Assembly (NCBI GenBank): GCA_003154115.1
Contig: PMCF01000305.1
Location: 222 to 41,245 of the forward strand
DNA length: 41,024 nucleotides
Source of the DNA: Anaerolineae bacterium
GTDB lineage: Bacteria > Chloroflexota > Anaerolineae > Fen-1058
Direction of reading: 5' to 3'
In this document: piece after piece, positions 6,849 through 21,441 of the stretch
Layout: each line of letters opens with the position of its first letter
Numbering within the stretch: the first letter of the stretch is position 1
Made by a program: the position numbers and the translations under genes
The notes under the pieces: generated by a model
What the model was told of the DNA's origin: nothing
Seen by the model: the letters and a program-made list of their open reading frames with translations, nothing else
Database searches by the model: none

Positions 6849-9032
<2,184 letters not shown>

Positions 9033-12121: not shown

Positions 12122-12351
12122 TTTTCAGCCTTCGCCTCAGCAAGCACAACAAACAGCAAATTGAGCGACTGCCGGGCAACCTTCGCAATATTGCCCGGCG
12201 TCGTATTGTAGCCCTTCAGACAGAACCACGGCCAGCAGATGCCAAAGAATTAGACCACCATCCGGGATACTTTCGTCTCTGGCTTGACGCCACTGTTTAT
12301 CAACGGTCGTCGTGCGTCTGGCGCTCTCGGCGATGCCACATCTCCGCATAA
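12118..12351 (+). pseudogene. RelE/ParE-type toxin gene with lost C-terminus
   Basis: The basic product begins MIFSLRLSKHNKQQIERLPG and continues through RRRIVALQTEPRPADAKEL and GYFRLWLD, the helical hairpin and first strands of a RelE/ParE fold. At about residue 59 similarity ends: the expected strand ('YRIVY...' and a final 'VG.R' strand) is replaced by ATVYQRSSCVWRSRRC. The last 52 bases overlap the 3' end of the convergent mocA-like gene, so a deletion or rearrangement probably joined the two. The toxin is likely inactive. Confidence 0.6.
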
Positions 12352-12974
12352 TCCTCCGGCGTGTCGAGGTCCTTCAGCACGCTGTCCGTCTCCACCACTA
12401 CATAGCGAATCTGTGCTTCGTGCGCTCGAATGAAGTCGCGCAACGTGGTCGTCTCCGACAGAGCCAGCACCTCCGGCCACAACGCTCGATCGATCAGAAT
12501 CGGATGGCCGCGCTTCAGCTGATAGGATGGGATGATGATCGCCTGAGGCTGTTGGGCATCGATCCCACCACGCCGTTTCCTGTGCGAAGCACAGGCGGCG
12601 CGCTTGGCGAAAGATGGGGACTGTTCCGTCACGCGCTGGATCACAGCGCGCTGGATGCGCGGCTGATCGCCCAGCACGATCAGCGCGGCGGTTGCTTCGG
12701 CCGGTAAGGCGCGCAATCCCACTTGAATGGACACCAGCATATCGGCCTGAGCATAAGCGGAATTGAAGACACAGCGCACCGGATAAGAACTGAGCAGCGC
12801 CGCAATCTGATCGGCCTGGTGGCCGGTCACGACGACTAGGTCATGTACCTGCACACAGGCGGCCACTTCCGTCACGACGGTTTCCAGCACCGTCGACGCG
12901 GCCAAAGGCAACAGCATTTTGTTGCAGCCCATGCGGTGTGATTGTCCTGCGGCGAGAATGACAGCGCCAATCAT
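12300..12974 (-). CDS. MocA/MobA-like nucleotidyltransferase with in-frame repeat insertion
   Basis: The 224-residue product begins MIGAVILAAGQSHRMGCNKM, the NTP-binding signature of the molybdopterin cytidylyl/guanylyltransferase group. Later it has LGDQP (101-105) and RGHPIL (155-160), typical of MocA, which attaches CMP to molybdopterin for xanthine-dehydrogenase-type enzymes. Between them, about residues 119-140 (QSPSFAKRAACASHRKRRGG) come from a 55-bp repeat and have no counterpart in the family. The frame is open upstream through three 27-bp repeats, but ATG 12974 gives the conserved N-terminus, so that start was chosen. The ribosome site is the GGGG of the last repeat unit. No molybdoenzyme gene is in the window. 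The Lys after MGCN is conserved. Confidence 0.88.
   Translation of the reverse strand: MIGAVILAAGQSHRMGCNKMLLPLAASTVLETVVTEVAACVQVHDLVVVTGHQADQIAALLSSYPVRCVFNSAYAQADMLVSIQVGLRALPAEATAALIVLGDQPRIQRAVIQRVTEQSPSFAKRAACASHRKRRGGIDAQQPQAIIIPSYQLKRGHPILIDRALWPEVLALSETTTLRDFIRAHEAQIRYVVVETDSVLKDLDTPEDYAEMWHRRERQTHDDR
12560..12627. repeat. Long-form repeat copy inside the mocA-like gene
   Basis: The segment begins CGATCCCACC, carries a hairpin CCTGTGC GAA GCACAGG flanked by CGCCG/CGGCG, and ends AAAGATGGGGACTGTTCC. Bases 12560-12614 are identical over 55 bases to the reverse complement of 15693-15747. The outer parts match the 27-bp unit found at 12980-13060, so this is the unit with a hairpin inserted in it. 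Confidence 0.8.
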
Positions 12975-12979
12975 GAAAT

Positions 12980-13060
12980 AATCCCCGTCTTTGGGTGGGA
13001 CGAAACAGTCCCCGTCTTTGGGTGGGATGAGATAATCCCCGTCTGTTGGTGGGATCGACT
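12980..13060. repeat. Three tandem 27-bp repeat units
   Basis: Units at 12980-13006, 13007-13033 and 13034-13060 share the pattern AATCCCCGTCTTTGGGTGGG followed by seven more variable bases. Read toward mocA on the minus strand each unit is nine codons giving IPPKDGDYF-like peptides, all open. The array ends directly at the mocA-like ATG, where the last unit supplies GGGGATTATTTCATG. Further related copies lie at 12560-12627, 15681-15747 and 20212-20264. Confidence 0.85.
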
Positions 13061-13213
13061 TCCGACAGTTGGCAGAGATAGAATGTGCTGCCGCGCGCAC
13101 TCCGCACCACACGCATATGCCGGCAAGTGGCCGCGCCGCGCAAGCCTAGCGGGTCACGCAGGCCGGGAGAAGTGGAGATCGATCGATCCGTCATAGGACA
13201 CAAGTTGCTAAAG

Positions 13214-13253
13214 TAAAAACCTTGCGAGAGCACACCATCACTCTCGCAAGGTT
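13214..13253 (-). terminator. Terminator of the FKBP lipoprotein gene
   Basis: A perfect 13-bp stem (AACCTTGCGAGAG with its complement, 13218-13230 and 13241-13253) is followed on the minus strand by a run of T. It lies 25 bases after the stop codon. Confidence 0.9.
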
Positions 13254-13278
13254 CTATCTTCATTCATTACGGCTGACG

Positions 13279-14487
13279 CTACTTCACGTCGAGCAATTCC
13301 ACTTCGAAGATCAGCGTCGAATTCGGTGGGATCGCGCCCTGGCCTTGCGCGCCGTAGCCCAGCGAAGGCGGAATCGTCAGCTTGCGCTTGCCACCCACTT
13401 TCATACCCTGCAAGCCCTGCTCCCAACCGGGAATTACCTGGCCCGCTCCCAGCGTCACTGTGATAGGCTCATTACGTTGGTAAGAACTGTCAAACACCAC
13501 GCCATTGGTGAGGGTGCCGGTGTAATTTACCGAGACCGTCTTGCCCGCTGCGGCTTCTGCGCCGGTGCCGACTTGAATATCCTCGATCTTCACTTGCGCC
13601 GGGGGCTGCACATCAAGCAATTCAATTTCGAAAATCAACGTGGCATTTGGTGGAATCGTGCCGCCATTGCCTTGCGGGCCATACGCCAACTCGGGCGGAA
13701 CGGTGAGCATACGCTTGCCACCGACTTTCATCCCTTGCAGGCCTTGGTCCCAGCCCGGCCCTCCTTGCTGGGCGCCCAGCGCGAATTCAACTGGCTGCTT
13801 GCCGGCGGACGACCCAAACACGGTGCCATTCGTCAAGGTACCCGTGTAATCGACCTTCACCGTCATGCCTGTTTTGGCCTCGGCCCCGGTACCCACTACG
13901 GTATCGTCGATCTTCACCTGCGGCGCAGGCTTGGTGTCGAGCATCTCGACGACAAATACTAACGTCGCATTCGGAGGAATCATGGCACCGGAACCTTTAT
14001 CGCCAAAGGCCAGATTCGGGGGAACCACCAGCTCACGGACACCACCGACTTTCATCGTGCTCATGCCTTCGGCCCAACCGGGGATGCCTTTGGCCAATTG
14101 ATCAAGCGGGATATTCTCCGGCCCACCACGCGTGCTTGAGTCGGCGATTAACGTGCCATCCTGCAAGGTAACTGTATATTGCACGGTCACCCAATCTGCG
14201 CTGGCCGGGGTCGCGCCCGTACCGGCCACGATATCGCTGTACTTCAAACCGGAAGTCGTCTTCTGCATATTAGGATCATCCAACGGAACGACCGGCGTCA
14301 CCTTCGGCGCAGTCGAGACCGCCGGGGTGGCATCGGTTGGCGCAGCCGTCCCACTCGGGGCCGCTGTCGTCGGCGCGACTGACGCAGCCGGGGAAGCCGT
14401 GGGCGCAGGCGTAGCCGCTCCACCCCCGCACGCTGCTAATCCTAACACGGTCATCACACACAATATACTAACTGCTAAACGTTTCAT
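13279..14487 (-). CDS. Lipoprotein with three tandem FKBP-type peptidyl-prolyl isomerase domains
   Basis: The 402-residue product starts at ATG 14487 after GAGGAG. It has a lipoprotein signal with lipobox LAAC (Cys20), then a Pro/Ala/Thr-rich linker to about residue 75. Three FKBP domains follow at about 78-187, 190-294 and 298-402. All keep the pocket Trp (PGW at 137, 246, 355). Domain 3 has the full set (NYTGTL, VFDSS, GYG, LIFEVELL). Domain 2 has Gly in place of Asp in VFGSS, and domain 1 has drifted further (VQYTVTL, LIADSS, AFG). It would assist folding of exported proteins at the outer face of the membrane. Domains 2 and 3 are alike enough to suggest a recent internal duplication. Confidence 0.95.
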   Translation of the reverse strand: MKRLAVSILCVMTVLGLAACGGGAATPAPTASPAASVAPTTAAPSGTAAPTDATPAVSTAPKVTPVVPLDDPNMQKTTSGLKYSDIVAGTGATPASADWVTVQYTVTLQDGTLIADSSTRGGPENIPLDQLAKGIPGWAEGMSTMKVGGVRELVVPPNLAFGDKGSGAMIPPNATLVFVVEMLDTKPAPQVKIDDTVVGTGAEAKTGMTVKVDYTGTLTNGTVFGSSAGKQPVEFALGAQQGGPGWDQGLQGMKVGGKRMLTVPPELAYGPQGNGGTIPPNATLIFEIELLDVQPPAQVKIEDIQVGTGAEAAAGKTVSVNYTGTLTNGVVFDSSYQRNEPITVTLGAGQVIPGWEQGLQGMKVGGKRKLTIPPSLGYGAQGQGAIPPNSTLIFEVELLDVK

Positions 14488-14610
14488 GCTCTCCTCGATT
14501 TTGAAAGTCATACCGACGTCACTTACTGCACCCCATGCAGTTCATCCGCCGGCTGCTTGAATAGAATCAGCGCGGCATAATCCACTTGCTCAGCGCGCGC
14601 TGTAACATCT

Positions 14611-14994
14611 CTACTTTATCATAAGTGGGAACGGGAAAAACAAGTGATGCTCGCTGCCCGTCACGCCAATCCATAGTTCCGGTTCGCGTTTGCCCGGTTT
14701 CAGTTCCACATCCTCGATCGCTTCCAGACGAATGAAGTAATTGCCCTTGAGCTTGACCCATTCGTCGAGCGTCGCCGGATCGATCTGGCTTTCGCGCGCC
14801 TGCACAGCCTGGATGCTGCGATCAGCCGATCGGGTGGCCACCACCTGGCCCTGCTCATCACGCCGATAATGCTTCAACGCCCCGCTGGTCCCCGTCTGAA
14901 TCAAGTACAGGCCGTCGTCAGTCAGCACTAACGAATAAACCCGCCGCACGCCCAGGGCCACCACGCGGATCACTTTATCGAAGCGCAGCGCCAT
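14611..14994 (-). CDS. Conserved-looking hypothetical protein
   Basis: The 127-residue protein starts at an ATG that overlaps the stop of the histidine phosphatase gene (TGATG), so the two are translationally coupled. It is predicted mostly strand-rich (VVALGVRRVYSLVLTDDGLYLIQTG) with a C-terminal FFPFP segment. This pattern resembles small PH-like or cell-wall-independent intracellular domains, but no family was recognised. No signal peptide or membrane helix is visible. Confidence 0.75.
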   Translation of the reverse strand: MALRFDKVIRVVALGVRRVYSLVLTDDGLYLIQTGTSGALKHYRRDEQGQVVATRSADRSIQAVQARESQIDPATLDEWVKLKGNYFIRLEAIEDVELKPGKREPELWIGVTGSEHHLFFPFPLMIK

Positions 14995-15626
14995 CAGTAC
15001 TCGTCCAGGTGATGCGTATCATTCGCCGCCAGTAATTCCCAACCCTGGACATTGATGTCCTTCAGCTCCAGCCAATGCCAATGAAAGATGGCGGTGTGAT
15101 CGCAGTGCATGAATGATATCAGGTTACGCTCGATCGGAATGCCCAGCAGGTGGAAGCTCACCATTTCGATCAGGCCCCCGTGCGTCACAATCACGATCGT
15201 CTTGCCCCAGTGGGTCTGCACAATCGCATCAAACGCCTGCGCGCCGCGCCGCAATAAATCGGCCAGGGCTTCGCCGCCGGGAAACGCGGGCGTATAGGGC
15301 AGCCGCCGGGCGCGCACCCAGCCATCGAAATCGACTTCCGCCGTGGCTTCCGACGGGCAATTGAGGCGCAATTCGGCAAGATTAGGATCGACGTTGAGGG
15401 GCAGCCCGGTGGCCTCGCCGATATGCCGGGCAGTCTGTCTGGCGCGCAGTAACGGGCTGCTGTACAACACATCCGGCTGGATGTGATTTGCCACTCGTTC
15501 GGCAACGCGGCGGGCCTGCGCATGGCCCTTTTCCGTCAGGCCATCCTCATGATCGGCCAACACCAGCCCGCCATCACTGTGCGCGCTGAACTGTTGGGCG
15601 TGGCGAATGAAGTAAAGATGTGTCAT
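14994..15626 (-). CDS. Histidine phosphatase family protein (phosphoglycerate mutase-like)
   Basis: The 210-residue product carries the catalytic RH motif at its N-terminus (FIRHAQQ, His9), the SSPLLRARQTA segment (Arg61), an acidic Glu85 and the second catalytic His149 in VTHGG. It is the size of cobC/GpmB-like phosphatases. The usual RHG is RHA here. It removes phosphate from a small molecule or protein; substrate unknown. Its ATG directly follows a partial copy of the 27-bp repeat (GGGGATTGTTTCATG), and an extended -10 promoter lies 42-50 bases upstream. Confidence 0.9.
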   Translation of the reverse strand: MTHLYFIRHAQQFSAHSDGGLVLADHEDGLTEKGHAQARRVAERVANHIQPDVLYSSPLLRARQTARHIGEATGLPLNVDPNLAELRLNCPSEATAEVDFDGWVRARRLPYTPAFPGGEALADLLRRGAQAFDAIVQTHWGKTIVIVTHGGLIEMVSFHLLGIPIERNLISFMHCDHTAIFHWHWLELKDINVQGWELLAANDTHHLDEY

Positions 15627-15667
15627 GAAACAATCCCCATTACCTGGTAGGATGGGACTTGGCGGCG

Positions 15668-15676
15668 ATTATAGCA
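15668..15676 (-). promoter_or_regulatory. Extended -10 promoter of the histidine phosphatase gene
   Basis: On the minus strand the bases read TGCTATAAT, a consensus -10 with the extended TG. The expected start of transcription is about 35 bases before the ATG at 15626. The region where a -35 would lie is occupied by the repeat at 15681-15747. Confidence 0.6.
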
Positions 15677-15680
15677 CATA

Positions 15681-15747
15681 GGACAATCCCCGTCTTTCGC
15701 CAAGCGCGCCGCCTGTGCTTCGCACAGGAAACGGCGTGGTGGGATCG
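15681..15747. repeat. Long-form repeat copy upstream of the histidine phosphatase gene
   Basis: This is the same element as 12560-12627 in the opposite orientation, identical over 55 bases (15693-15747), including the GCACAGG/CCTGTGC hairpin. It is intergenic here. A partial relative (AATCCCCATTACC) lies at 15630-15645, directly before the ATG. Confidence 0.85.
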
Positions 15748-15818
15748 CACCACGTCAAATGCTCCCTGCCGGGCTATATCCGGCCACGCGCCCATCTCCC
15801 ACCAGCAGCTTCGATTAG

Positions 15819-15827
15819 TGCTATAAT
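15819..15827 (+). promoter_or_regulatory. Extended -10 promoter of the DUF433/DUF5615 pair
   Basis: TGCTATAAT has a perfect -10 (15822-15827) and extended TG. The start codon is 41 bases downstream. No -35 match was seen at the usual distance. Confidence 0.6.
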
Positions 15828-15867
15828 TTTCTTGAAGATTGAGGCCTAATTGACAGGAGCAAATTTC

Positions 15868-16185
15868 ATGAGCGCCTTTACCCTCACCGATTATCGCTAC
15901 ATCACCCGCGTGCCAGACATCTGCGGCGGCCGGCCCATTATCAAAGGCACCCGGCTGCCAGTCCAAACCATTGTCGGCTATTACAAACTGGGCTTAGATG
16001 TGGAAGAAATCCTTGCGGGCCTGCCGCAGTTGACACCGGCTCAAGTCTTTGAAGCCCTCAGTTACTACCACGATTTTCCCGCCGAGATCGAGCAGGATAT
16101 TGAGGCTGGCCGGATGGAGCGCGTTCTGGCGCGTGAACACCTGACCGTAACGCCCGACGGACGACTCACCTCCAATGCCCTATGA
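15868..16185 (+). CDS. DUF433 protein, likely antitoxin
   Basis: The 105-residue product starts at ATG 15868 with AGGAG eight bases upstream; an in-frame ATG 18 bases earlier lacks a ribosome site. It contains RYITRVPDICGGRPIIKGTR, the classic DUF433 opening, followed by a winged helix-turn-helix-like region (DVEEILAGLPQLTPAQVFEAL). DUF433 proteins are VapB-like partners of PIN-fold proteins. Its stop overlaps the next gene (ATGA). Confidence 0.92.
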   Translation: MSAFTLTDYRYITRVPDICGGRPIIKGTRLPVQTIVGYYKLGLDVEEILAGLPQLTPAQVFEALSYYHDFPAEIEQDIEAGRMERVLAREHLTVTPDGRLTSNAL

Positions 16186-16550
16186 GCGCTGAAACATCGC
16201 TGTTCATCCGCCTGTATCTGGATGAAGACGTTCACAAGCGAGTTGCCGCGGCTTTGCGACTGCGGCACTTTGACGCCGTCAGCGCCCACGAGGTCCAGCG
16301 CTGGGGACTGACCGACGAGGCGCAACTGGCTCAAGCTGCCGCCGAAGGACGGACGCTCTTCACTTACAATACGCCGGACTACGTCCATCTCCACTTTGCC
16401 TGGCTGAAACGCGGCCAGCAACATTCCGGGATTATCGTCTCCGACCAACTTCCCATCGGTGAAACGATCCGCCGCCTGCTCAGCCTTTTGAACCGCGTGA
16501 CAGCCGACGAGATGAAGAATGAAATCCGCTGGCTGCAGGCCTTCAAGTAA
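16182..16550 (+). CDS. DUF5615 PIN-like protein, likely toxin
   Basis: The 122-residue protein begins with an acidic cluster LYLDEDVHKRV (Asp14, Asp16) and later has LFTYNTPDYVHLH, the positions of acidic or metal-binding residues in the PIN-like DUF5615 fold. It is encoded directly after a DUF433 gene, the standard partner. Such proteins are presumed ribonuclease-type toxins. The usual 'T.D.DF' strand reads TYNTPDY here, so one acidic residue is Asn; activity is uncertain. Confidence 0.88.
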   Translation: MSAETSLFIRLYLDEDVHKRVAAALRLRHFDAVSAHEVQRWGLTDEAQLAQAAAEGRTLFTYNTPDYVHLHFAWLKRGQQHSGIIVSDQLPIGETIRRLLSLLNRVTADEMKNEIRWLQAFK

Positions 16551-16701
16551 GCGCCCGCTCTCGCCAGGATGGGATTTTTCCAACCAGCCATCTGCTGTAA
16601 CCACGCCCCCATGACTATTATGCTCGCCATGCCCGACGTTCTTACGGAGCGTCAGCGGCCGCCAGGCGTGTGACTTCGTGGATCAAATCTTTCCGGCCGA
16701 T

Positions 16702-17883
16702 CTATATTCGGCCCCGCGCCGCATCGAGGAAATGCCGCAGTCGAGTGGAGAACGTGTAACGCCCATAGCGCGCGATCAACCACTCGCGTTCCGGCCACAG
16801 GGCGCGAAAAACCAGCTTCACCGCATCACGGGGTCGATCCACCAGCAGGAGCAAAAACACGTAGCGCCAGCGGCTCTGGCTAAGATTACGCCGACCGACG
16901 ATCAAGGCAGGGTTTGCCAGCCGGGTGATGAAGTGCCGGCGGAACGCGGAAGGGGCGAGAACGCGCACAGCAGCGTCTGCCTCGGTGAGCCCCAACAGAT
17001 TCACGGCAAGATTCAGGGCCAACCAGACCACTGCGGCCAGTCGCCACGCCTGTGCCCGCTGCACTACCGCATCCCAGTCAATCGATTGCCTCCGCGCCAG
17101 CAAAGCCATATCCAGCAGATTCCGCGCCGCAAAAAATGAGACTTGATGGTTGATCACCAGATGCGTCGCCGATTGGATCAAGGCATCTTCCGGCGACATT
17201 AGGCGGACTGGAACACTTTCTAGCTCTAGCGAGCTTACACGAACCCGCACACTCGTCTCGTCAACCCGCGCCGCATGCCGCAACCATTCACCAAGAAAGA
17301 CGCTGAGATGTAACTCGATCAGGCCGGTGTCTGAAGGTACACCGCTCATATGAATCTCGCCACCGAATTGCGTCATCAAAGCGGGAGGTCGATCGGGGTT
17401 GGTGATCTGCGCATAGCCCAGGCGGCGCAGCACGTCTTGCACATGCGGCAATTCAGCCGGCTCGATCCACAGATCGAGATCGCCCATCGGGCGACATATC
17501 GAATCAGGGTAAACGGTTCGCCCCAGTGCCGCCCCTTTGAAGACGATCGGCGTAATGCCTGCGGCCAACAACGCGCTGAGCACCGTGTGCAGCTCACGCC
17601 GCTGTAATTCCGCATCGCCCACAGCGGAGTAGTACGACATCTGCAATTGTGTGCCCGCTTCAAGGGATAGGTTGGGGGTCGTGCGGCACACCTGCCAGAC
17701 GAATGGGGCAAGACCTTGCTGTTGGACCCACTCCACTCCCAAAGCGTTGGTCGCATCGGCGCAGCTGAGTCGATCGGTCGTGAGTAGACTGATCAGCAAG
17801 CATCGCACGGCCGTCACACGGCTCGCTTGAAAGCCCGGTGGGGCATCAGCCGCGAACAGCGGCGCGACACTGTTGGCAAACAT
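16702..17883 (-). CDS. Nucleotidyltransferase family protein (NTP_transf_5-like)
   Basis: The 393-residue product has a central nucleotidyltransferase core: FKGAALGRTVYPD, then GDLDLWIEP (about residue 133), the Asp-x-Asp of the pol-beta superfamily, followed by IELH. The flanks are helical. Such proteins occur in polysaccharide and peptide-modification clusters, where their substrates are mostly unknown. The gene overlaps the end of the DegT gene by 38 bases, so it belongs to that operon. A shorter start further in cannot be excluded. Confidence 0.82.
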   Translation of the reverse strand: MFANSVAPLFAADAPPGFQASRVTAVRCLLISLLTTDRLSCADATNALGVEWVQQQGLAPFVWQVCRTTPNLSLEAGTQLQMSYYSAVGDAELQRRELHTVLSALLAAGITPIVFKGAALGRTVYPDSICRPMGDLDLWIEPAELPHVQDVLRRLGYAQITNPDRPPALMTQFGGEIHMSGVPSDTGLIELHLSVFLGEWLRHAARVDETSVRVRVSSLELESVPVRLMSPEDALIQSATHLVINHQVSFFAARNLLDMALLARRQSIDWDAVVQRAQAWRLAAVVWLALNLAVNLLGLTEADAAVRVLAPSAFRRHFITRLANPALIVGRRNLSQSRWRYVFLLLLVDRPRDAVKLVFRALWPEREWLIARYGRYTFSTRLRHFLDAARGRI

Positions 17884-19042
17884 AGTTCACTTGCTCTTCC
17901 GTCATCACACTTGAGAAAGGCAGCGCGAGGGAAACATCGCCCAAATATTCGGTTACGGGAAAATCGCCGCGCTGGTAGCCGAATTTGTCGCGGTAAAACG
18001 GCTGAAGGTGAATCGGTGTGAAATAGGGGCGGCTGGGCACGCCCGCGATCTGCAAACGCCGCAGCACTTCGTCACGTTGTGCCGGGGGTTTGATGCGCAC
18101 TACATACACGAACCAACTCATGCGCGTGGTCGACGCCGCGAGATGCAGCACCTCGATCAGTTCTTCATCCTTTAGGCGTTCCGTATACCAGGCGGCCACC
18201 TGGGCTCGCTTCGCTAACAATTCGTCGAGGCGCTTGAGCTGGCTCAACCCTAAGGCCGCGCTCAACTCGTCGAGACGATAGTTGTACCCCAGCCGCGAAT
18301 GGTTCAGCCATGCGTCAAACACATCGCGGCCTTGATTGCGCAAGGAACGAAACAGGTTGGCCCAGGCTTCGTCGTTGGTGACGATCATGCCGCCTTCGCC
18401 GGTGGTCATCTGCTTATTCGGATAGAAGGCAAAGACACCCATGTCGCCCAACGTGCCCGCTTTGCGCCCTTTATACTCCGCGCCGATGGCCTCACACGCA
18501 TCCTCAATCACGCTCAATTGATGAGTACGCGCGACTTCCAAGATCGGATCCATGTCACATGGCTGCCCAAAGGCGTGTACAGGCAGAAGCGCTTTCAAAT
18601 TTCTGAGTGCTGATTTCTGATTGTTGATTGATCTCGGCAACCAACGATTCTGCATCTCGCTTCCTGCGTCTTGCATCAAATCGTGCGCCGCTTCCGCCAC
18701 CAGCGCCGGATCGATGTTGCCCGTCTGCGGATCGACATCCACAAACACGGGCACGCCGCGCTCGTACAGGATGCTGTTGGCCGAGGAGATGAACGAGAAG
18801 GGCGTGGTGATGACCAGCTCGCCGGGCTGAACATCAGCGGCGATGACGCCCAAGTGCAGACCTGCCGTGCCGGAGTTGACACCCACGCCGAACTTCGCGC
18901 CGACAGCCTCTGCGGCTGCCTGTTCGAACGCTTTAATCTGTGGGCCGATGCTGAGAACCGGTGTGTGTAGGACGGCATTCACCGCCGCAATATCGTCGGC
19001 GGTTAGATCGGGGGAGGACATGGGGATGGGCAATTTAGACAT
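17846..19042 (-). CDS. DegT/DnrJ/EryC1/StrS-type sugar aminotransferase with an extra insertion
   Basis: The 398-residue PLP enzyme transfers an amino group, usually from glutamate, to a keto-sugar nucleotide. It shows NSGTAGLHLG, PFSFISSANS, DACEAIGAEY and the Schiff-base Lys210 in FYPNKQMTTGEGG. Residues about 123-149 (from MQDAGSEMQNRW to ALRN) are extra compared with the family, where the strand ending ALLPVHAFGQP follows directly. The DNA there is repeat-like and keeps frame. The N-terminal 60 residues are duplicated at 20105-20371. The gene overlaps the small gene upstream and the nucleotidyltransferase downstream, so all are probably co-transcribed. Confidence 0.93.
   Translation of the reverse strand: MSKLPIPMSSPDLTADDIAAVNAVLHTPVLSIGPQIKAFEQAAAEAVGAKFGVGVNSGTAGLHLGVIAADVQPGELVITTPFSFISSANSILYERGVPVFVDVDPQTGNIDPALVAEAAHDLMQDAGSEMQNRWLPRSINNQKSALRNLKALLPVHAFGQPCDMDPILEVARTHQLSVIEDACEAIGAEYKGRKAGTLGDMGVFAFYPNKQMTTGEGGMIVTNDEAWANLFRSLRNQGRDVFDAWLNHSRLGYNYRLDELSAALGLSQLKRLDELLAKRAQVAAWYTERLKDEELIEVLHLAASTTRMSWFVYVVRIKPPAQRDEVLRRLQIAGVPSRPYFTPIHLQPFYRDKFGYQRGDFPVTEYLGDVSLALPFSSVMTEEQVNYVCQQCRAAVRG
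18596..18676. repeat. Repeat-like in-frame insertion inside degT (approximate ends)
   Basis: About 81 bases (27 codons) have a composition unlike the enzyme gene. Short near-repeats are visible: TCTGAGTGCTGATTTCTGATTGTTGATTG-like spacing of TGATT motifs, and GCATCTCGC/TTGCATC at the other end. There is no stop codon in the degT frame. Confidence 0.5.
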
Positions 19043-19397
19043 AGGCTAAGTTGGGATCGTCCTGAATATAAGCGAGTGTTTGACCCAGATAGGGCAGCGC
19101 CGGCAAGTCATGCCACGCGCGTAGCAAGTGATAGGTAGGCGAGGTCAGTAATTGGCAGTGATCGACGGCCGCGCGCCACGCGGGACAACGAATTTCGGCA
19201 ATCGTCGCCGGTTCTGGCAGGAACCCAAAGTCCCACGCCGCACACAGACGCGCCAGAAAATCAATCTGATCGTCGAAGTCATCCAGCCGGGCAGGCGGCT
19301 CCACATCAGGATATAGCGCGCCGTCCAGCCAGACCTCAACCGGAGTGTTGTCCGGCGCCGAAGCATTATTCGGCAGCGAGGCGTTATTCGGCAGCAT
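19035..19397 (-). CDS. Small acidic protein paired with the AbiEii-like gene
   Basis: The 120-residue product probably starts at ATG 19397, which overlaps the end of the AbiEii-like gene by 14 bases. The first 15 residues carry a duplicated LPNNAS unit. The rest is rich in Trp, Asp and Pro (VEVWLDGALYPDVEPPARLDDFDDQIDFLARL). It ends eight bases inside the degT start. The overlap on both sides shows that it is translated with its neighbours. No family was recognised. Confidence 0.7.
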   Translation of the reverse strand: MLPNNASLPNNASAPDNTPVEVWLDGALYPDVEPPARLDDFDDQIDFLARLCAAWDFGFLPEPATIAEIRCPAWRAAVDHCQLLTSPTYHLLRAWHDLPALPYLGQTLAYIQDDPNLAYV

Positions 19398-20082
19398 CAA
19401 GAAACTCTCCCGTATACCAGGCCCGCAGGGCCTCGGCCTGTTGTTGCTGGGTCGAATCGGCAATCTGATCCAGACGGCGATGCTGCGCAATCCGCGCCAG
19501 GTGAGTTTGAATGGCTAGTTTGGCCCGGCCTACATCTGCCGGGCTGCCTGCTGCAGTTTGACGCCGCTGCCACAACGCCCAACAGTCACGCGGCATCAGC
19601 AGGCCCGCCTGGCACAAGGCGTGAATGTCACGAAAATCGCGCGGCGCGCCGCGTTCAACCAAGGCGACCATTTTGCTCGCGACCAGATCGGCCAGGCTAT
19701 CCAGCGGCACTTGAATCCAGGGGGCCAGCCGCGTCGGATCCAGTTGCGCCGAACGATGCGCAATCTGAAAACTAAAAACCGTTTTTCCGGCATGCACCAA
19801 CTCCACACTGGCCACATCACCCCAACCCCGGGTCTTCACCTCACCCGCCTGACGCAAGACCTCTTCAAGAATTTGGAGTACCTGCCGCCGATCGGCTTCG
19901 GTCGCCGTGTCGGTCCACCAGGCATCGACGTCATGGGTAGCCCGGTAATCAAGATAATGCAACGGGCCCAAAGCACCACCCAGCGAGATTTTCTCGGCCA
20001 GACCGTGATCGACCAAAGCCTGCAGGCACAGCTCACTATAGTCAGGCAGATGTTTCGGACGACGCGGCTGCAGAATAGTCAT
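19384..20082 (-). CDS. AbiEii-like nucleotidyltransferase
   Basis: The 232-residue product carries SLGGALGPLHYLDYRATHDVDAWWTD, the pol-beta-type GG...H...TxDxD core of the AbiEii/AbiGii (DUF1814) family. Later conserved parts are SKMVALVERGAPRDFRDIHAL. AbiEii proteins are toxins of abortive-infection systems that modify tRNA acceptor ends. The usual partner AbiEi (winged-helix antitoxin) is not present; instead a 120-residue acidic protein overlaps its 3' end. The pair lies between a degT fragment and a full degT, which suggests insertion. It could also be a non-defence family member. Confidence 0.82.
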   Translation of the reverse strand: MTILQPRRPKHLPDYSELCLQALVDHGLAEKISLGGALGPLHYLDYRATHDVDAWWTDTATEADRRQVLQILEEVLRQAGEVKTRGWGDVASVELVHAGKTVFSFQIAHRSAQLDPTRLAPWIQVPLDSLADLVASKMVALVERGAPRDFRDIHALCQAGLLMPRDCWALWQRRQTAAGSPADVGRAKLAIQTHLARIAQHRRLDQIADSTQQQQAEALRAWYTGEFLDAAE

Positions 20083-20104
20083 GCTTCACCACGACCTTTC
20101 GCAT

Positions 20105-20371
20105 CTATTGTACACCAACGCCGCCAGCCAAGGGCAACCCCGCCGTGCCAGAGTTGACGCCCACGCCAAACTTCGCGCCGACAGCCTCTGCTGCTGCCTG
20201 CTCAAACGCTTCGATCCCTCCCAAGACAGGGACTATCGTCCCACCCAAGGACGGGGATTGTCTCATCTGCGGACCGATGCTGAGCACGGGCGTCTGCAAT
20301 ACGGCATTCACCGCCGCAATGTCGTCGGCGGAGAGATCAGGGGAGGACATGGGAATGTGATAAGCAGGCAT
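20105..20371 (-). pseudogene. 5' fragment of a degT aminotransferase gene carrying a repeat insertion
   Basis: The first residues (IPMSSPDLSADDIAAVNAVL) and EAFEQAAAEAVGAKFGVGVN are nearly identical to the start of the full degT at 19042. Similarity stops after NSGTAGL, and the frame ends nine residues later. Between SIGPQM and EAFEQ the fragment has 17 extra residues (RQSPSLGGTIVPVLGGI) from two repeat units. Its ATG overlaps the stop of the FemAB-like gene, suggesting this was the original position of degT in the operon. Confidence 0.88.
20212..20264. repeat. Two 27-bp-type units inserted in the degT fragment
   Basis: Units GATCCCTCCCAAGACAGGGA... (from 20213) and GTCCCACCCAAGGACGGGGA... 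(20238-20264) belong to the family seen at 12980-13060. Compared with the uninserted degT copy at about 18935, 53 bases replace two, a net gain of 51 bases or 17 codons without loss of frame. Confidence 0.88.
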
Positions 20372-21441
20372 TAGCTCTCTGTATCAGCTGGTGGAATCGA
20401 TCGATACGCCGGAAAGTAATTTGGTGCCAGTTCACAGCCGTGATAGTATGCCAGCCAGGCACTGCATATCTGCGCATATTCTTCGGCCTGATGTACATGC
20501 TTATATACCTGAAAACGTGCGCGCAAGGGTGAAAAACTCGACTTGAATCGAAAGATACCATCATCGGGATGATATCCGCCGCCCAGGATGAGACGCCGCT
20601 TTCCGTGTTGACGTGCCCAGTTAATTGTGTCGTAGACTACGGCATTCGTCGGTCGAATCTGTTGAAACGCTTGATCAGCCCCACCTAAGTAAGAGTACAC
20701 ATCAACATCATCGTGAAGATACAGGGTGGCGGCTACAATCTGATCACGGTATTCAGCCAAAACAAAGTGAACATGATCGGGCATCTGCTCAAAAAAAGCC
20801 TGAAAGTAGTCAAACGGAAAGTAATAGCGCTTTAGGGCATTATTCCGATCCATGGTATGCGTATAAATACGATAGAACTCACGAACATGATCCAGCGATG
20901 TCGCTACAAACACACGTACATTTTCCTGGCGTGTCCGGTTGAGGTTCTTGCGGCACGCATACGTCAAAGACTCATTCCACAATTGACCTTCGGATAACGT
21001 CACGTCGACATAGACAATTTCACGGTCAAGGCTGACATCTTCTGAGTAAAGGCACTCCGCCTGCCAGTTCCAAGGATGCAGGTGGGCAAACTCGGCAATG
21101 ATGTTATGCTGACGACAGACCACGTCAAATTGCTCTCTAAAAGACTGCATAAGCGCCTGGTCAGTTGTGCGCGCAATCGGGCCGGTATACTCAGGCGAAA
21201 GGATATCCACCCATTCTCGATCCAGGTTGACCGCAAAAGGCAGACTGTTCACGGGTCGCAAGAAGAATGGGAAAGCAACCGCGCCTGTATCAGAGGATAA
21301 CACAAACAAGCGCGCCGCATGTCCCGTATGCTCCTGATAAATCCGCGCATATTCAACGCTCCCAAAGATACTGGCAGTAGCAGGCAATGTTGCTTGCCAG
21401 CGCGCGACGTCGGCAACACTCAACAACTTTTCGTGGATCAC
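20371..21441 (-). CDS. FemAB/GNAT-type acyltransferase
   Basis: The 356-residue protein shows the double-GNAT pattern of FemAB-like enzymes (Acetyltransf_6): TYACRKNLNRTRQENVRVF, then FVLAEYRDQIVAATLYLHDDVDVYSYLGG and RFKSSFSPLRARF near the end. Such proteins in polysaccharide clusters move acyl or aminoacyl groups onto amino sugars or glycans. It overlaps the upstream aminotransferase gene by four bases, so it may acylate the amino group that enzyme makes. Substrate is inference. Confidence 0.85.
   Translation of the reverse strand: MIHEKLLSVADVARWQATLPATASIFGSVEYARIYQEHTGHAARLFVLSSDTGAVAFPFFLRPVNSLPFAVNLDREWVDILSPEYTGPIARTTDQALMQSFREQFDVVCRQHNIIAEFAHLHPWNWQAECLYSEDVSLDREIVYVDVTLSEGQLWNESLTYACRKNLNRTRQENVRVFVATSLDHVREFYRIYTHTMDRNNALKRYYFPFDYFQAFFEQMPDHVHFVLAEYRDQIVAATLYLHDDVDVYSYLGGADQAFQQIRPTNAVVYDTINWARQHGKRRLILGGGYHPDDGIFRFKSSFSPLRARFQVYKHVHQAEEYAQICSAWLAYYHGCELAPNYFPAYRSIPPADTES

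Follow-up and report, generated by a model that had tools for sequence, protein, structure and literature searches.

What is the 27-bp sequence that recurs in both orientations among the genes of a Thermoflexales genome, and why does it sit where it does? The window, the whole stretch of 41,024 nt that we analysed (G000:C13:222-41245), belongs to G000, a Thermoflexales (Chloroflexota) MAG of 7.7 Mb in 460 contigs with 8.5% estimated contamination. A preliminary description of this DNA had counted at least seven related units in 8 kb, read in both orientations and in different frames, and had proposed that they are either a mobile peptide-encoding element or a product of replication slippage. 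All seven units are present and are read in both orientations and several phases, and an eighth (15626-15652) had been overlooked. In the window, the core pattern CCCACCCAAAGACGGGGA has 4 matches at up to 3 mismatches, against 0.03 expected.

Three of the 27-bp units form the tandem array reported earlier (13028-13054, 13001-13027 and 12974-13000, minus strand), which has an exact period of 27 and splits the start codon of a mocA/mobA-like gene (CDS 12300-12974, minus strand). The final base of the array, at 12974, is the A of the ATG, the TG being host bases 12972-12973, and the flanks once joined read gaagtcgATGATTGGC. Counted from the ATG restored by the array end, the MobA domain starts at residue 4. 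The peptide IPPKDGDYF, previously read as part of this protein, does not belong to it: the array (12974-13054) is an untranslated in-frame leader, as is seen from the position of the MobA domain and from the orthologues, which start at the codon that the array restores. The same gene also carries the long form described before, of 66 bp (12563-12628, plus strand), antisense to the gene and in frame, which adds 22 codons encoding about SFAKRAACASHRKRRGGIDAQQ. The insert is exactly 22 residues long, as an alignment to PDB 2we9 advances from 121 to 144 in the query while the structure advances from 123 to 124.

The overlooked unit (15626-15652, minus strand) interrupts the first codon of a histidine phosphatase gene (CDS 14994-15626, minus strand). 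In the product read from the restored ATG, residue 4 is the first of the His_Phos_1 domain. Upstream of this gene is a second 66-bp long form (15679-15744, minus strand), the intergenic copy that had been placed at 15681, which is 97% identical, inverted, to the one at 12563-12628; a TATAAT-like sequence separates it from the start-codon unit. The last two units of the window, of 24 and 27 nt (20215-20265, plus strand), interrupt a truncated degT copy (20105-20371, minus strand), in frame and in antisense; this copy comprises about 70 N-terminal residues and lies 1 kb from an intact degT (17846-19042). The 51 nt of the two units make 17 codons, and at this site the fragment (LSIGPQ-MRQSPSLGGTIVPVLGG-IEAFEQ) has 17 residues more than its intact paralogue (LSIGPQIKAFEQ). 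A related unit occupies the same degT site in the relative G003 (locus L193/L094). Elsewhere in the window, at 15850-16550, a DUF433 gene (PF04255) followed by a DUF5615 gene (PF18480) is likely a VapBC-like toxin-antitoxin pair, and in G003 (L167) a unit array has a similar gene end (CTGCAGGCCTTCAAGTGA) some 1 kb on its upstream side. The LigA gene (6855-9032) has an unusual stretch of 42 protein letters at about 7300-7450, directly before LVVRGEAF, which is possibly another in-frame repeat insertion.

From 88 short units we derive a 27-bp consensus, TCCCACCAnAAGAYGGGGAYTNTYYCR, followed by T. The ends are fixed (5' TCCCACC, 3' GGGGAYTNTYYCR; terminal sequence on the right GGGGAYTNTYYCRT), and long forms, of 66 bp and more, keep both ends and have one or more extra hairpins in the loop (ACGCCGTnTCCTGTGCTTCGCACAGGCGGCG.. 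or ACGCCAGGCGGCCCACC..GGGGAATGGGCA). Terminal inversion is limited to TCCC/GGGA near the unit ends and is not fully terminal; where two units meet, the junction GGGAY-TNTYYC-RTCCC makes a small inverted repeat. Positions Y20 and R27 covary, with 89 cases of T..A, 17 of C..G and 4 of other combinations (Fisher P about 1e-17), a statistic that may be inflated by shared descent of two subfamilies. The two unit types alternate within single arrays, as in the mocA array (TA, CG, TA). A stable RNA hairpin is not supported for the short unit, which folds no better than shuffles (hairpin z-score about 0), and long forms fold just slightly better. Rfam covariance models gave no match at E≤1 in 12400-20500. 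Some long forms (L109, L082, L172) hold a further repeat (GGACACACCGCACTGC..GCAGTGGGTGCAAGTGTGGGCA) nested in the unit loop, and the long-form interior of the CGGCCCACC..GGTGGGCA type resembles sequence adjoining other repeats in L200 and L201, which we take as nested insertion.

Copies were gathered by pattern search followed by retrieval of the surrounding regions. The search of the whole genome and of relatives, which the preliminary description had recommended, finds the family genome-wide and in related genomes, so that it is not limited to the window. The source genome has about 70 units; in it the core pattern has 44 matches at up to 3 mismatches and the right-end pattern GGGGATTNTYYCAT has 56, against 0 for each reversed-pattern control. 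Among 60 sampled genomes (the source and relatives of its class), the unit is found in five, all of one family, with 51, 7, 14, 7 and 1 matches; outside that family these genomes give one stray match with 3 mismatches. In a collection of 85,462 species it appears only in three Thermoflexales MAGs (BIN19, BIN20 and Chersky.3_67). Six IMG/VR contigs also carry it, some with terminase, portal, capsid protease and major head proteins, which identifies them as real tailed phages. The 86.7-kb contig IMGVR_UViG_3300031949_000016 has 12 units, a density far above that of the bacterial genomes, including five identical 27-bp units in tandem (52041-52175; L266-L270) at the start codon of a 287-aa gene.

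The location of the insertions is the main result. We rebuilt insertion events from all loci by joining the flanks with a script, allowing up to 2 mismatches. Genes were predicted by a hexamer model that had learned from the long ORFs in these loci, with computed starts checked against orthologues. This also provides the proposed count of copies in genes versus between genes: of 87 events, 30 are exactly in a start codon, 20 are inside genes and 37 are elsewhere. In the start-codon events the unit is in sense orientation, between the first and second base (A^TG or G^TG). Start codons make up 187 of the 5479 intergenic YNR^T sites (3.4%), which we use as the null, and receive 30 of the 67 non-intragenic events (about 45%), a 13-fold excess with P~3e-26 in a statistic that pools related genomes and partly dependent events. 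The source genome alone has 21 of 55 events in start codons. In the distance profile, 30 events fall at 0 nt, no distance between 1 and 59 nt holds more than 2, and the antisense side is flat. The effect is not created by the search, because the search patterns behind most copies include the T of the start codon and not its G.

In each of these events the start codon now begins with the last base of the unit, R27, and the native start is regained when the flanks are joined. R27 is A in 29 of the 30 events at start codons and in 44 of the 57 others. The insertion displaces the native Shine-Dalgarno sequence (SD) at least 27 bp upstream, and the unit's GGGGA sits seven bases before the restored ATG. 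For ribosomal protein S10 the joined flanks give a native initiation region AAGGAAACAACCGT-ATG (with downstream sequence, aaggaaacaaccgt-ATG-gccaag), and for an NADH-dehydrogenase-like subunit they give gaggtaactct-ATG. Alignment of orthologues, also suggested in the preliminary description, reveals the empty sites: most of 18 genes tested share their start codon with orthologues from four relatives, these orthologues mostly carry no unit, and one colinear pair of loci (L097 and, in G001, L231) differs by exactly 27 bp directly before ATGAGCCTGCAAACC. The S10 gene has a unit in G000 and G001 and none in G003 and G004. The genes for TruA, SelB and the NADH-dehydrogenase-like subunit are occupied in G000 as well as in G001, in part by units of different types. 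This shared occupancy of the four genes suggests either old occupation with turnover or recurrent insertion. On the viral contigs, four genes, encoding 270, 315, 488 and 287 aa, likewise have a unit exactly at the start, in one case as the five-unit array, and these are an independent replicate of the bacterial pattern.

The target of insertion can be written YNR^T: the left flank has Y at position -3 in 91% of cases and R at -1 in 85%, and the T is that of the unit. The pattern also holds away from start codons (C at -3 in 75%), where there is no preferential G after the target T (30%); as far as is visible, therefore, the sequence that is targeted does not include the start codon. The right end of the unit is YCR before T, the same as the target, and since a unit's own right end is thus a good target, head-to-tail arrays with an exact period of 27 result. 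No target duplication is visible, the net insertion being exactly 27 bp compared with the empty site in G001 and the left base at -1 frequently differing from the unit's last base. The covariation of Y20 and R27 would fit an internal guide. A guide for the left end is disfavoured: the base at -1 does not follow Y20 and is independent of it (P=1).

Insertions inside genes account for 20 of the 87 events (about 23%); all are multiples of 3 bases and 18 are free of stops. Fourteen of the 20 are antisense, mostly in one phase free of TGA and TAA. That intragenic insertions are always multiples of three and nearly always stop-free fits a purging of other insertions. The preliminary description had held that units stay in frame inside genes and that no copy adds a stop. 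The former is correct for the true intragenic copies, such as those in MobA (22 extra residues) and degT (17), and not for the majority of events, which lie outside coding sequence; the latter fails in 2 of the 20. Both kinds of site can occur in one gene, as in SelB (L050), where one unit occupies the start codon and another, of 66 bp, lies in frame within the body of the gene.

We looked for an enzyme that could mobilise the unit. All five genomes have RAYT-like/Y1 genes, at ten PF01797 loci in all, and in these incomplete assemblies none of the ten is flanked by the unit, each having other palindromes. The six viral contigs have no Y1 transposase. The RAYT/Y1-like genes at L031-L034 and L198-L202 (G000-G004) each lie amid their own palindromic repeats (e.g. 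CCGGCTNAAGCCTCGACTCC, CAACCCGCGCAGCGGGTTT, GCGATTTCAATCGC), so that several REPtron-like families coexist in Thermoflexales genomes. As candidates for an autonomous long version we read left ends without a nearby right end; in L106 the sequence between two near-identical units holds an ORF for a membrane protein of 555 aa, not a transposase.

The unit shares properties with several known kinds of repeat. It is possible, although we find it doubtful, that the unit belongs with the REP-like palindromes and owes its movement to a REP-associated tyrosine transposase (RAYT), its start-codon location being a by-product of tolerance. REP/RAYT REPtrons and the GTAG- and CGTC-tagged repeats are likewise short, multicopy and mostly extragenic, with a palindromic tendency, arrays, tagged ends and some in-frame intragenic copies, and CGTC repeats are also without a known transposase (PMC3733652, PMC6006769). 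The RAYT-like genes in all five genomes and the lack of target duplication agree with such an origin, as does the YCR^T common to both cleavage-like sites. This last property is also that of IS200/IS605 elements (Y1 HUH), in which the left target and the right end share a short recognition sequence and no duplication arises (PMC6006769); the unit has YNR^ on the left and YCR^ on the right, both before T. However, it lacks an internal transposase and the guide tetranucleotide 5' of a hairpin needed by IS200/REP enzymes, and it shows no clear counterpart of the subterminal guide and hairpin at each IS200/IS605 end. In particular, the GT[AG]G 5' of a stable hairpin that defines a REP is absent, with no GTAG/GTGG foot in the consensus, and the RAYTs found are flanked by other repeats, never by the unit, and do not occur in the phage contigs. 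The location is also a mirror image, since published REPs mostly adjoin gene 3' ends, where GTAG REPs supply a TAG stop and CGTC repeats are found too (PMC3733652), whereas the unit lies inside start codons in sense and supplies an SD-like sequence together with the start codon. MITEs (RUP, BOX, ERIC, Correia/NEMIS) resemble the unit in being non-autonomous, mobile and near genes, and in known cases they affect expression. They differ by their terminal inverted repeats and target site duplications; the unit has no long terminal inverted repeats and no duplication, is only 27 bp long and is placed at start codons with one-base precision.

The unit might instead be a translation-control module, inserted at random YNR^T sites and kept at start codons as an SD-bearing hairpin by which initiation is regulated or improved; an RNA thermometer with UCCC covering GGGGA would be one example. 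The SD-like spacing, the excess of A at R27 in start-codon events and the occupation of the genes for S10, TruA, SelB and the NADH-dehydrogenase-like subunit in two genomes, sometimes by different unit types, speak for this proposal; against it, the hairpin is weak and not above shuffles, the affected genes have no common pathway and there is no Rfam match at the locus, and we treat it as an unlikely though serious candidate. The view taken in the preliminary description, a mobile peptide like the Rickettsia palindromic elements (RPEs), is improbable. RPEs are about 150 bp long and often intragenic, and they encode a conserved peptide (Ogata et al. 2000, 2002, reviewed in PMC10969869). The unit resembles them only in its in-frame tolerance within protein genes, to which the 20 intragenic events, 18 of them stop-free, and the clean inserts of 22 aa in MobA and in SelB (L050) testify. 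It differs in its length (27 or 66 bp) and mostly extragenic location, and it has neither a conserved encoded peptide nor a long palindrome; both orientations are read, antisense copies fall mainly in a single stop-free phase, as purging predicts, and in start codons, about a third of events, the unit's own frame is untranslated. What survives of the mobile-peptide proposal is the dispersed mobile family, while a peptide-encoding role is not supported as the principal account, given that just about 23% of events are intragenic. That some neighbours within the tandem 27-bp arrays are identical could suggest replication slippage or an assembly artefact, an origin to which we give almost no weight. 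The dispersed copies are spread over many contigs, at loci that are unrelated and differ in their flanks, and there are orthologous sites that are empty; the copies recur in five genomes, across separate MAGs and phage contigs that stem from different metagenomes. This refutes slippage or artefact for the dispersed copies and leaves slippage at most some of the tandem ones.

The best explanation, to which we assign a probability of roughly 0.75, is a non-autonomous mobile repeat of Thermoflexales and their phages that inserts at YNR^T, is concentrated at start codons and is presumably mobilised in trans. Insertion at YNR^T proceeds without duplication, spikes at start codons, restores the start through R27 and is tolerated in frame within genes. 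The enzyme acting in trans would be a site-specific, probably single-strand (HUH-like) nuclease or a recombinase recognising YCR^T. Judged by its sequence and position, GGGGA may act as the Shine-Dalgarno sequence; it is a weak candidate, with one G-U pair, when compared with a single 16S 3' end (that of G004). The affected gene would then keep its protein and a working initiation region despite the displacement of the native SD, and units would be retained at start codons as nearly harmless or as useful for translation, besides which there may be real targeting to initiation regions. With the 37 events elsewhere taken as the neutral rate per intergenic YNR^T site, start codons should hold about 1.3 events, and they hold 30; tolerance alone is therefore insufficient, unless almost every insertion at other intergenic sites is purged. 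Either insertion prefers initiation regions or selection keeps units for an effect on translation. As a cause of such a preference, the coding strand being single-stranded near starting ribosomes is speculative. We tentatively consider, at somewhat less than even odds, that the unit is a selfish element that targets start codons and brings its own initiation region, and so spreads nearly harmlessly in the genes of host and phage, a "safe harbour".

Mobile repeats are usually described by their avoidance of genes. Here one base-exact site, the interior of the start codon in sense, holds a third of the insertions, and the affected genes include the essential ones for ribosomal protein S10, TruA and SelB. 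In the open-access literature that we searched, no repeat with a base-exact preference for start codons is described; if the safe harbour is real, the strategy would be new for short bacterial repeats, as far as that literature shows. Targeted insertion would point to a nuclease or recombinase with a specificity for initiation regions. If the units are instead selected, they would be a natural experiment in which one ribosome-binding module has been placed before dozens of genes. Either way, gene callers are misled into false N-terminal extensions such as IPPKDGDYF, and the unit can serve as a marker by which phages are assigned to Thermoflexales hosts.
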